From Pirellulales bacterium (GTDB lineage Bacteria; Planctomycetota; Planctomycetia; Pirellulales; JAGQOS01), in NCBI GenBank assembly GCA_028289525.1, contig JANQPJ010000093.1, forward strand, positions 1-38,942: DNA of 38,942 bases, in the 5' to 3' direction. Made by a program: the position numbers and the translations under genes. The stretch's first letter is position 1. Each line of letters starts with the position of its first letter. Positions 1-27,240 of the stretch are shown one piece after another. A model generated the notes under the pieces. The model had not been told where the DNA came from and did no database searches. It saw only the letters and a list, made by a program, of their open reading frames with translations.

Positions 1-1735
<1,735 letters not shown>

Positions 1736-5680: not shown

Positions 5681-5753
5681 TGGAGGTAGACGGACTCGAA
5701 CCGACGACCCCTGCCTTGCAAAGGCAGTGCTCTCCCAACTGAGCTATACCCCC
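5681..5753 (-). tRNA. tRNA-Ala(TGC)
   Basis: GGGGGTATAGCTCAGTTGGGAGAGCACTGCCTTTGCAAGGCAGGGGTCGTCGGTTCGAGTCCGTCTACCTCCA: D arm, anticodon TGC, TTCGAGTCC T-loop; acceptor stem pairs. Confidence 0.95.
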
Positions 5754-10299: not shown

Positions 10300-10845
10300 A
10301 TGATTCGAGATCGAATCCGCGAGCTGCGTCGCGTGCCGGCTTCTGAGCTGGTTCCACATCCTCGCAACTGGCGAACCCATCCCGACGGTCAGCGCAAAGC
10401 CCTTCAGGCGGTCTTGGCCGAGGTTGGATTCGCTGACGCCTTGTTGGTGCGGGAGTTGGCCGATGGCAGGTTGGGCCTCATTGATGGCCATCTGCGGGCG
10501 GAAACAATTCCTGACATGCAAGTGCCGGTGTTGGTGTTGGACGTTGATGATCGAGAGGCTGAAAAAATACTCGCGACCTACGATCCATTGGCCGCCATGG
10601 CCGAAGCGGATCGTGAGCGTGCGACTGCCTTGCTTGCTGACATCGAGTTTGAGGACGAGAAGCTTGGGCCGCTGTTGGAATCCCAGTTGGCGGCAGAACA
10701 CAGCCAGCCGCCAATGTCGGCAGAGCATGGAAGATTGGATGAAGTATTTCAAGTGCTGGTGGAGTGTGAGGATGAGGCACAGCAGCGGGAGCTATTCGAA
10801 CGACTTGCTGCGGAAGGCCATGTCTGTCGCGTGCTCACACTTTAG
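10300..10845 (+). CDS. ParB/Srx-like nuclease-domain protein (phage type)
   Basis: VPASELVPHPRNWRTHPDGQRKALQAVLAEVGFADALLVRELADGRLGLIDGHLRAETIPDMQVPVLVLDVDDREAEKILATYDPL. Confidence 0.88.
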   Translation: MIRDRIRELRRVPASELVPHPRNWRTHPDGQRKALQAVLAEVGFADALLVRELADGRLGLIDGHLRAETIPDMQVPVLVLDVDDREAEKILATYDPLAAMAEADRERATALLADIEFEDEKLGPLLESQLAAEHSQPPMSAEHGRLDEVFQVLVECEDEAQQRELFERLAAEGHVCRVLTL

Positions 10846-10870
10846 CCAGGTTCCTGTCTAGGACGATTCG

Positions 10871-11977
10871 ATGCCAACGATTGAAGCAACTGTGCAATGT
10901 GAAGTGCACAATTCGTTTCGGGTGCAGCAGGTAGCCGGAATGTTTGGGCTAAAAGTAGATGGGCAAAACAAAGAGACGTTTGTGGTCGACGTGCCTGATG
11001 TTCAGGAATCGTGGCGGATCGGGGCCATTGTGGGGCCGTCTGGTAGTGGCAAGTCGACCGTTGCACGTTGTGCTTTTGGCGAGGCGGTCTTCGATCGGCA
11101 TGCTTGGCCTGCCGAGCGGGCGATGATCGACTGCCTGGGAGAGCGGCCGGTAAAAGAGGTCACTCAGACGTTAACAGCCGTGGGATTTGGCAGTCCGCCA
11201 GCGTGGCTGCGTCCGTATCACGTGCTGAGCAATGGAGAACAATTTCGTGCTGATCTGGCCAGAGCCTTGCTTGCCGAGACGCCACTGTTGGTTTTTGACG
11301 AGTTCACCAGCGTAGTCGACCGGACCGTGGCGAAAACAGGGTCGGCCGCATTGGCTAGGGCATTGCGGCGAGGGCAGCTCGACAAACGTTTTGTGGCGGT
11401 AACCTGTCACTACGACGTACTGGAGTGGTTGGAACCAGATTGGGTGGTCGACATGGCGCAGCTTGAGCTGCAACGGAGGCGTCTTCGGCGACCAGAAATC
11501 CGGCTCCGCATTGTTCCTTGCCATCACTCGGCGTGGCGTTTGTTTCGAAGACATCATTATTTAAGCCATTCAGTGAATAAAGCTTCGCATTGCTATCTGG
11601 CGCTTTGGGGGCAACGGCCAGTTGCATTTTGTGCCGTGCTGGCGATGCCAGGGCGACGTGGACGTTGGCGTATCTCGCGGATCGTGGTGCTGCCGGACTT
11701 TCAAGGCATTGGAATCGCAACGAGGTTTTTGGATGCGATTGCCGAGCAATATGCGAGCGAGTCGAAACGGGTAAATATCACGACATCGCATCCGGCCATG
11801 ATCGCCAGCTTGCGGCGCTCAGGACGCTGGCGTCAGGTCGGCGTCAAAAAAACAGGACACTGCGTCCAACGCGGTGCGCGAACTGGCGTGTTGAATTCGT
11901 ATGTGAAAAGTGTCTCCCAAGGGCGAGCCGTCGTGTCGCTGGAATATCTGAAGGCAGCCGCCTGTGGAGGTCGGTGA
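10871..11977 (+). CDS. ABC-type ATPase fused to a GNAT-like acetyltransferase domain (COG2401-like)
   Basis: Walker A GPSGSGKST, signature LSNGEQFRADLARALL, Walker B LLVFDEFTSVVD; C-terminal RRHHYLSHSVNKASHCYLALWGQRPVAFCAVL...RISRIVVLPDFQGIGIATRFLDAIAE. Confidence 0.85.
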   Translation: MPTIEATVQCEVHNSFRVQQVAGMFGLKVDGQNKETFVVDVPDVQESWRIGAIVGPSGSGKSTVARCAFGEAVFDRHAWPAERAMIDCLGERPVKEVTQTLTAVGFGSPPAWLRPYHVLSNGEQFRADLARALLAETPLLVFDEFTSVVDRTVAKTGSAALARALRRGQLDKRFVAVTCHYDVLEWLEPDWVVDMAQLELQRRRLRRPEIRLRIVPCHHSAWRLFRRHHYLSHSVNKASHCYLALWGQRPVAFCAVLAMPGRRGRWRISRIVVLPDFQGIGIATRFLDAIAEQYASESKRVNITTSHPAMIASLRRSGRWRQVGVKKTGHCVQRGARTGVLNSYVKSVSQGRAVVSLEYLKAAACGGR

Positions 11978-12044: not shown

Positions 12045-12479
12045 TTGGCAGACAATGAAATGCTCGCAGGTGATTCAGCAGGCAGCCACTCCCAGCCCGA
12101 GCGAGCATCGGGCGAGAGGGCGAGTGCGCCACTCGACTCACAGCAATCGTGTTGGGTTATTCCTGAAGGCGCTAGAACGGTCGTCCCAGCCAGCTTGGTG
12201 CGCATCGTGGTCGAACGCCGCGAAGAGGTGTGTCCGAAAACCGGTGTCAAAACGGAAGTTTATGCCTACGACGCTCGGACGAGAATTTCGGCTGCCCAGG
12301 CGTTGGTCGCCATGCACCGGCAAATTCAAACCGAACAGACCAATGGACAGCGAGATGAGTCACCCTCGATCGCCGATTCTAAGCAACGCCAACGCCGACT
12401 TCTTGCTCTCGCTGAACAACTGCGAACTGCAGGCATGGATGGCGACATTGACTCCCTGGGAGCGGACTCTGGTGCTTGA
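12045..12479 (+). CDS. Hypothetical; position suggests a terminase small subunit-like protein
   Basis: Protein-like C-terminal half (VRIVVERREEVCPKTGVKTEVYAYDARTRISAAQALVAMHRQIQ...RQRRLLALAEQLR); TTG 12045 or ATG 12060 start; just upstream of TerL. Confidence 0.5.
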   Translation: MADNEMLAGDSAGSHSQPERASGERASAPLDSQQSCWVIPEGARTVVPASLVRIVVERREEVCPKTGVKTEVYAYDARTRISAAQALVAMHRQIQTEQTNGQRDESPSIADSKQRQRRLLALAEQLRTAGMDGDIDSLGADSGA

Positions 12480-13896
12480 AGACCTGTGTCAATTGGCCAG
12501 TCAATCGGATTGCCCAAGCAGTCCGGCAGAGTTGGGAGCCCGGGCTTGGGGACGTGTGTGGCGGATGGCCAGGCATCTGACGTTGCTGAACCGAACGCTG
12601 GTCGACTTGGCGCAACGGCGAATCAAACGTTTGTTGATCATGATGCCGCCTCGCCACGGAAAGTCGGTGCTGGCCAGCCAGTTTTTTCCCGTTTGGTATT
12701 TAGGAATGCACCCCGACCATCGTGTGTTGCTGGCAAGCTACGAAGCCACTTTTGCCGCCAGCTGGGGCCGCAAGGCCCGGGACTTGATGGAACAGTGGGG
12801 GCCTGAATTGTTCGGAGTCCGGGTGCGGGCAGATTCCTCGGCCGCTAATTCTTGGAATTTACGAAATCATTTTGGGGGGATGAGCACGGCGGGTGTTGGT
12901 GGGCCGATCACAGGGCAGGGGGCTGATTTGCTAATTGTCGACGACCCCGTCAAAAACGCCGAGCAGGCTTTGAGCGAAACCTATCGTGAAAAAGCTTGGG
13001 ATTGGTGGACATCGACCGCCTTTACCCGACTCGAGCCGAATGCCGTAGCGATTGTCGTACAAACTCGCTGGCATCAGGACGATTTGGCCGGACGTATTCG
13101 TGCCGAACAACAGGACGAAGCCTGGCGCGAAATTCGTTTTCCTGCGATCGCCGAACAGCACGATTGCTTAGGACGCAAGCCGGGCGAGGCGCTTTGGCCT
13201 GAACGCTTTTCGGTTGAGAAGCTGCGCCAGGTTGAACGGTCGATGCCTGTCCATTGGTGGCGATCGCTCTACCAACAGCAGCCAGGAAAGCACGAAAGTG
13301 TTTTGTGGCCGCTGGAATATTTTCAAGGCGACGATCTCTGGTTCGATGAGTGGCCCAGCGACTTGCAGCTGCGGGTGATGACGCTTGATCCTTCCAAAGG
13401 GCAGGGGACACGCCGGTCCGATTACTCGGCCTATGTGTTGTTAGCAGTTCAGGCGGGAGGGCTGGTTTGGGTCGAAGCAGACTTGTCAAACAGCCGGCCG
13501 CCGACCCAATTGGTCGACGACGGAGTTGCACTCTACAAGCGGTTTCGTCCTGAAGTGTTTCAAATTGAAGGCAATGCCTGGCAAGACCTGTTGGGCGGTA
13601 TGTTTGCCGAGGAGTTCCGAAAGCAAGGGCTGCTGCATGTGCGTGTCGGGGCCATGCACAACACGATTCGCAAGGAGCTAAGAATCGAAACTCTAGATGG
13701 CTTGCTCCGTGCCCGGCAAATCCGGTTTCGGCGAACGCCAGGCACAGAGCTTTTGGTCTCACAACTGCGCGATTTCCCGGCCGCACGTCATGACGACGGA
13801 CCGGACGCTCTCGAGATGGCTGTGCGAACCGCGAGAGATTGGTGGGATCAAGAGCCAAGCGAGGCGACGTCGCAGTTGCCGCACTTCGGATTTTAG
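12343..13896 (+). CDS. Phage terminase large subunit
   Basis: Walker A MMPPRHGKSVLASQF, Walker B LLIVDDPVKN, nuclease-type MTLDPSKGQG and DDGPDALEMAV. The open frame upstream to 11590 overlaps the ABC/GNAT gene and is not counted. Confidence 0.95.
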   Translation: MDSEMSHPRSPILSNANADFLLSLNNCELQAWMATLTPWERTLVLEDLCQLASQSDCPSSPAELGARAWGRVWRMARHLTLLNRTLVDLAQRRIKRLLIMMPPRHGKSVLASQFFPVWYLGMHPDHRVLLASYEATFAASWGRKARDLMEQWGPELFGVRVRADSSAANSWNLRNHFGGMSTAGVGGPITGQGADLLIVDDPVKNAEQALSETYREKAWDWWTSTAFTRLEPNAVAIVVQTRWHQDDLAGRIRAEQQDEAWREIRFPAIAEQHDCLGRKPGEALWPERFSVEKLRQVERSMPVHWWRSLYQQQPGKHESVLWPLEYFQGDDLWFDEWPSDLQLRVMTLDPSKGQGTRRSDYSAYVLLAVQAGGLVWVEADLSNSRPPTQLVDDGVALYKRFRPEVFQIEGNAWQDLLGGMFAEEFRKQGLLHVRVGAMHNTIRKELRIETLDGLLRARQIRFRRTPGTELLVSQLRDFPAARHDDGPDALEMAVRTARDWWDQEPSEATSQLPHFGF

Positions 13897-27050: not shown

Positions 27051-27166
27051 GCGTGGGGAAGAGTTTGCCAGGGATGCGATGCCATCATCCAGGCGAGGGC
27101 GATGCCTCGATAGGTGGAGGGCGAGAATGTCTTAGCTTCTGCTTTCAGAGGAGCCAGCAGAAGAAG

Positions 27167-27240
27167 TGGGTGTGCGAGGATTCGAACCTCGGACCTCGGC
27201 CTTATCAGGGCCGCGCTCTAACCAACTGAGCTACACACCC
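27167..27240 (-). tRNA. tRNA-Ile(GAT)
   Basis: GGGTGTGTAGCTCAGTTGGTTAGAGCGCGGCCCTGATAAGGCCGAGGTCCGAGGTTCGAATCCTCGCACACCCA; full cloverleaf, anticodon GAT. Confidence 0.96.

Follow-up and report, generated by a model that had tools for sequence, protein, structure and literature searches.

The gene of a ParB-like protein and the gene of an ABC-ATPase/GNAT fusion that directly follows it in the window, i.e. the whole 38,942-nucleotide stretch of planctomycete DNA analysed here, form a two-gene set that occurs in hundreds of unrelated phages. Judged from sequence comparison and gene order, this pair very probably serves to modify DNA bases; the best evidence for this is the placement of the fusion in Mu-like phages, behind Com and in the position of mom. 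We propose, and hold to be probable, that the pair is a phage system for DNA-base acylation, in which the GNAT domain would acylate a base, the ABC domain would clamp the DNA, the tail of the ParB-like protein would dock on the fusion, and the product would be protective.

The window locus and the architecture of the fusion

The window is one contig of a 4.0-Mb genome in 425 contigs. It carries on its plus strand a phage block (terminase, portal and capsid genes), flanked by tRNA-Ala and tRNA-Ile and lying beside a partial 23S rRNA; the block may have been inserted into the spacer of a split rRNA operon. We considered that it might be a gene-transfer agent, an idea prompted by the fact that no integrase was seen in the window. 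The terminase-capsid block is shared with a related locus (G167). The features are the following.

1-1729, minus strand: partial 23S rRNA, cut by the contig start, beside the phage block
5680-5753, minus strand: tRNA-Ala(TGC), one flank of the phage block
10300..10845, plus strand: ParB-like protein, 181 aa (ParB-like N-terminal domain, linker, conserved C-terminal tail)
10732..10842, plus strand: C-terminal tail ("adaptor", RLDEVFQVL...CRVLTL) of the ParB-like protein, from a profile HMM
10871..11977, plus strand: ABC-ATPase/GNAT fusion, 368 aa (phrog_11143, AlphaFold2), proposed nucleobase acyltransferase
10871..11488, plus strand: ABC ATPase domain of the fusion, residues 1-206, from motifs and fold comparison
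11033-11059, plus strand: Walker A, GPSGSGKST, in the ABC domain
11225-11242, plus strand: signature, LSNGEQ, in the ABC domain
11285-11305, plus strand: Walker B, LLVFDEF, in the ABC domain
11309-11320, plus strand: D-loop, in the ABC domain
11405-11416, plus strand: H-loop, CHYD, in the ABC domain
11492..11956, plus strand: GNAT domain of the fusion, residues 208-362, from PF00583 and fold comparison
11552-11566, plus strand: HHYLS with the invariant H-Y (H229-Y230), in the GNAT domain
11702-11719, plus strand: CoA loop, QGIGIA, in the GNAT domain
12045..12479, plus strand: 144-aa ORF between the fusion and TerL, outside the conserved pair
12361..13896 (start approximate), plus strand: terminase large subunit (TerL), context only and not part of the module
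27166-27240, minus strand: tRNA-Ile(GAT), other flank of the phage block

The ORF of the ParB-like protein opens at a TTG (10297), the likely start being the ATG at 10300. The initial annotation had read this region as a ParB-like ORF, then intact ABC motifs and a GNAT-like domain in a single ORF, then a terminase, and the order was confirmed. The window fusion retains every ABC motif and the CoA loop intact, the former being the motif set of an ABC ATPase, and key motif residues, including Q278, G279 and G281 of the CoA loop, are invariant in 63 relatives. The GNAT domain matched PF00583 (E 1.1e-8), and phrog_11143 covers the whole fusion (residues 7-362, E 2e-108). TerL (phrog_38 E 3e-96, PF03237 E 5e-16) begins at about 12361, with only the 144-aa ORF between it and the fusion; this ORF gave no Pfam or PHROG match of note, and no homologue of it was found in 80 viral loci.

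An AlphaFold2 model of the fusion has two confident domains (mean pLDDT 92, pTM 0.87). Residues 1-206 of the model align with ABC nucleotide-binding domains with VIA-align Z scores of 13.6-15.3. Modelled alone (pLDDT 89), the GNAT domain found its nearest folds, among the best 50 matches listed, in 1y9k (Z 15.7), RimI (15.2) and PA4794 (14.5). As modelled, it thus resembles ordinary CoA-dependent acetyltransferases acting on proteins or small molecules, such as RimI and Naa50, and it has both the loop (Q/R-x-x-G-x-G/A) and the fold of a CoA-dependent GNAT.

The initial annotation had further suggested that the fusion could act on DNA in the manner of Mom. The DNA-modifying part of this suggestion is very probable in view of the Com/mom placement described below; a specific relationship with Mom is not supported by profile comparison. 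The Mom family PF25680 was not among the Pfam matches of the window fusion at E<=0.1, while Mu Mom itself scores E 2e-75, and a profile comparison (hhalign) of the fusion with diverse Mom proteins returned a probability of about 1%; membership of the fusion in the Mom family is thereby ruled out. An H-Y motif common to the fusion (H229-Y230) and to Mom (H58-Y59) is a weak lead. The crystal structure of Mom (8bv8, present in the PDB) is not among the best 50 fold matches of the GNAT domain, and this was given no evidential weight.

Pairing with the ParB-like protein and its tail

The window ParB-like protein matches the phage ParB family phrog_620 (E 1e-10) and also phrog_498 (E 1e-11), a DNA methyltransferase family that is matched near its N-terminus. 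The PADLOC model MTase_II matches residues 9-119 (E 8e-7), and the Pfam ParB_N match (PF02195, E 0.097, 13.2 bits) is below the cut-off, the gathering score being 26.3.

For the viral census, 80 viral contigs were retrieved using the fusion alone as query. A ParB gene was detected directly upstream of the fusion in 68 of the 70 loci with room for it. This count comes from a six-frame profile search, used in place of gene calling, which had found ParB at 56 loci, long antisense ORFs masking it. The offset between the two genes is identical in 35 viral loci (22 nt, in the convention of the script), and the annotated genes of Lactococcus phage P335 and Streptococcus phage MismyG overlap by 22 nt; such a fixed offset is consistent with translational coupling. 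Among 80 loci from planctomycete genomes, the ParB tail lies upstream of the fusion in all 74 that have room, and all 74 also match the ParB profile, one of them (L329) over a short length. We conclude that the adjacency is not due to chance and that the pair is a unit. The ParB-like protein, put forward in the initial annotation as a partner of the fusion, is a fixed one. The census does not extend this to the terminase: TerL was found within 2.5 kb downstream of the fusion in 53 of 64 planctomycete loci and within 3 kb of it in 30 of 65 viral loci, and outside one phage group it does not follow the pair.

Homologues of the fusion are encoded by isolated phages of Gordonia, Arthrobacter, Lactococcus, Streptococcus, Leptospira, Aeromonas, Pseudomonas and others. 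In P335 and MismyG, two ORFs behind ParB encode ABC and GNAT separately, the break falling at the domain boundary, and a split at this place was observed in three loci (L083, L089 and L147: two Firmicutes phages and one viral contig). The fusion also matches 647 plasmid records; among the matches listed, nearly all cover the ABC half only. The phage-plasmid SSU5 (L088, 3626-6770) has two ParB-like genes, then an ABC-only relative, then genes for proteins of 84 and 296 aa that gave no Pfam match, possibly a variant with no recognisable GNAT. Aeromonas phage PX29 (L092, L249) has both types of gene, ABC-GNAT and Mom-like, at a distance of about 17 kb. In two loci (L137, 6197-6769; L146, 6092-6868) an ORF resembling a second ParB-like gene lies directly 3′ of the ABC-GNAT gene, the donor genes described below being missing there.

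Mu-like phages reduce the ParB partner to its end: just the last 40-50 residues or so are kept, as a short ORF between Com and the fusion. An HMM of the tail, built from C-termini of the window group alone and leaving out all Mu-like members, found the tail, in 76 of 81 Mu-like loci (E<1e-3), where the ABC-GNAT gene begins, with zero off-target matches below E 0.1. Since Mu-like phages retain the tail alone, the tail is probably the real partner of the fusion; we infer from these sequences that it would be the obligatory one, with the ParB domain serving as an optional module for targeting. ParB also adjoins a Mom-like gene in phage Appa, where the tail is absent from the ParB protein, and accompanies cytosine carboxymethyltransferases (PMC12783734). 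ParB is therefore a recurrent partner of phage base modifiers.

Mu-like phages, candidate acyl donors and a chromosomal branch

A search with the homologue of Pseudomonas phage Komp_PAO1_1 yielded 359 loci, of which 80 were kept. Com (PF10122, E 1.5e-7) was found upstream of the fusion in 70 of them, the tail ORF being the only ORF in between. The fusion lies at the right end of these genomes, after the tail-fibre genes: its gene ends within 120 bp of the end of the sequence record in 18 of the 80 loci and within 1 kb in 41, figures to which the cutting of viral contigs may have contributed. In Mu, 115 bp separate the end of mom from the right end of the genome.

What Com usually precedes was examined in a separate search for Com, which gave 80 Com-like loci. 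The gene downstream encodes Mom in 20 loci, a DNA methyltransferase in 51 and ABC-GNAT in 1, the classes being Pfam-confirmed for representatives; none of the three follows in 8. Mom or a DNA methyltransferase thus follows Com in 71 of the 80 loci; the 8 others comprise two apparently broken methyltransferases, one contig end and five cases seemingly unrelated to Com. Com is thus mostly a partner of base-modifying enzymes, and the fusion occupies the slot of Mom or of a methyltransferase. In Mu, Com is described as activating mom translation, and the Mom modification as shielding DNA from restriction (PMC6483171). The window locus itself is neither behind Com nor at a Mu-like right end, and its phage group has neither Com nor a donor gene, so that its substrate is deduced from relatives.

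Two sets of accessory genes accompany the fusion. In Jace-like actinophages, PanD (aspartate decarboxylase, PF02261 E 2e-33) and a short class III CoA-transferase (PF02515 E 2e-8) lie next to it; downstream of the fusion in 39 such loci, PanD is present in 14 and the CoA-transferase in 18. The self-cleavage Gly-Ser of PanD is conserved in 8 of 8 distinct sequences, and the GDT Asp of the CoA-transferase, which we take to be the catalytic Asp of class III enzymes, in 12 of 12. From these sequences, the two enzymes could make beta-alanine and then beta-alanyl-CoA; they could instead serve CoA supply. In one contig family (L128-L133, L138), two tandem ABC-GNAT genes surround PanD and the CoA-transferase, possibly with two specificities.

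The second set is a formyltransferase, which follows the fusion in 42 of the 46 Mu-like loci with room, and also in Gordonia phages, a Delftia plasmid, one further locus (L156) and three planctomycete loci. Searched against the PDB, it matched the N-terminal domain of ALDH1L1 best (E 8e-24), and this weakened the assignment to a PurN-like enzyme (GAR to FGAR), which had been entertained. The N-domain of ALDH1L1 hands formyl to a 4′-phosphopantetheine arm (PMC8748788). As that arm has the same thiol group as CoA, formyl-CoA is one candidate donor. In the tree, the fusions sampled that are linked to a formyltransferase share a single long branch (support 100) and the Jace-like set with PanD and CoA-transferase belongs to a different clade (support 98), as expected if donor specificity varies by clade. 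The Com link comes from one phage lineage and the donor genes from two protein clades, so that these observations amount to few independent events. A literature search returned nothing relevant on PanD with DNA modification, on Com with ABC or formyltransferase, or on COG2401, the name by which the initial annotation had called the fusion.

The pair is also chromosomal. In one genus of the same class as the window, one copy is present in 16 of 17 genomes and in 15 of the 15 of high quality (loci including L434/L435, L256-L261 and L438-L448). These fusion copies always lie behind ParB, are monophyletic (support 100), and show a dN/dS of about 0.07 between two species of the genus. No terminase was found by profile search beside the pair in these 4.1-kb loci. 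In one genome (G181), the neighbours scanned gave Pfam matches to a response regulator, a transaldolase, a sulfatase and a type II/IV secretion ATPase, and to no phage structural gene. In that genus, the pair looks less like prophage cargo than like a conserved function of the bacterium.

Proposed mechanism, alternatives and known systems

In the acylation system that we propose, the ParB-like protein would use its conserved C-terminal tail to dock on the fusion and its ParB domain to guide the fusion to DNA. The ABC ATPase would dimerise and spend ATP to clamp or distort the DNA, so that a base could reach the GNAT site, where an acyl group would be moved from acyl-CoA to the exocyclic amine of the base. 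The acylated base would mask phage DNA from restriction or another defence. The acyl group would depend on the clade: in the window, where no donor gene is present, it would probably come from a housekeeping acyl-CoA, whereas phages with PanD and the CoA-transferase would possibly add beta-alanyl and those with the formyltransferase formyl. A more detailed version, which we regard as tentative, is a modular family of phage DNA acyltransferases. In actinophages, PanD and the minimal class III CoA-transferase would supply beta-alanyl-CoA; in Mu-like and Gordonia phages, the ALDH1L1-like transformylase would supply formyl-CoA or formylate an aminoacyl base. Bases such as N-beta-alanyl and N-formyl derivatives would result, and one planctomycete genus would mark its own chromosome by means of the pair.

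The fold comparison points elsewhere, as the nearest GNAT folds are those of protein and small-molecule acetyltransferases, e.g. RimI and Naa50, and modification of the RNA polymerase of the host by phage GNATs is on record (PMC7824862). The GNAT could accordingly acetylate the ParB-like protein or a protein of the host, for example RNA polymerase or a ribosomal protein, with the ABC domain positioning it. We consider this unlikely, as it leaves unexplained the placement at the Com/mom locus, the sharing of ParB with other DNA modifiers and the clade-specific donor genes. The same partners, Com and ParB, indicate DNA rather than RNA, which makes a base acetyltransferase acting on tRNA or phage mRNA quite improbable. 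TmcA/NAT10 does pair an ATPase module with a GNAT, and when the GNAT profile was compared with PDB sequences, nothing but NAT10, an RNA cytidine acetyltransferase, matched (E 0.003, 28 residues), but the match is marginal and covers the CoA-binding motif only.

The TerL counts given above would suit a packaging or partition factor, ABC and ParB acting with the terminase on concatemeric DNA, and the initial annotation had raised a packaging link. This link was rejected: terminase adjacency, common in the group of the window, does not accompany the pair beyond that one phage group, and neither the Mu-like phages nor, in its 4.1-kb loci, the chromosomal genus shows it. The fusion lies past the tail-fibre genes in Mu-like phages and among early genes in several actinophages, and the GNAT half is given no role, so that such a factor is very unlikely. 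Most improbable is a host-takeover or defence ATPase whose GNAT would act on a small molecule or toxin. When the window ParB and fusion were scanned against the MADS models, the ABC part gave weak, partial matches to the defence proteins mad3 (E 3e-13) and mad8 (E 3e-4), but these span parts of the ABC fold only, and the census shows no conserved toxin or nuclease partner.

In the sections of the literature consulted, base acylation by an ATPase-coupled GNAT is a prediction with no known product. If DNA-base acylation holds, the accessory genes suggest concrete products, detectable by mass spectrometry in isolated phages (Komp_PAO1_1, Jace), and the genus in which nearly all genomes have the pair provides a second system, where base modification could show by single-molecule sequencing. 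It would add a class of DNA chemistry, with a partner protein whose tail can be dissected, and would show a phage modification system turned into a bacterial chromosomal function.

Among known systems, TmcA/NAT10 is an analogy of working, as an ATPase plus GNAT that acts on a nucleobase, but its ATPase is a helicase and not an ABC protein, its substrate is RNA, and only the 28 residues match. ParB-methyltransferases, CmoX and ParB-Mom likewise place a ParB-like protein beside a base-modifying enzyme; in the window the enzyme is an ABC-GNAT and the ParB bears the special tail. Com-Mom of Mu is similar in that, in Mu-like relatives of the window protein, a GNAT-superfamily enzyme stands behind Com near the right end, but Mom has neither the canonical CoA loop nor an ABC domain, whereas ABC-GNAT has an intact QGIGIA. 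Closest are the ABC-coupled phage GNATs (phrog_11143), which belong to the same protein family as the window fusion, with the same ABC-then-GNAT order over the whole length. That a GNAT with a coupled ABC ATPase carries out an acyl modification, itself uncharacterised, on a nucleobase is a prediction of 2013 (Iyer et al. 2021, PMC7824862, section 3.4.7, citing Iyer et al. 2013, gkt573), with phage pT24 as the example. Tenacibaculum phage pT24 matches the window fusion at 35% identity (E 3e-42); its record (LC168164, L084) has an in-frame TGA at 5691-5693, inside the GNAT domain, which may be due to a sequencing error, a break of the frame or recoding. The idea of DNA modification by the fusion is thus prior art, already published as a prediction. 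That statement, as it stands in the section cited, covers the fusion and a generic acyl modification only, and does not include the ParB tail, the swap at the Com/mom locus, the donor genes or the chromosomal copies. The Com link, the acyl-donor genes, the ParB tail and the chromosomal copies, none of which figured in the initial annotation, are supplied here.
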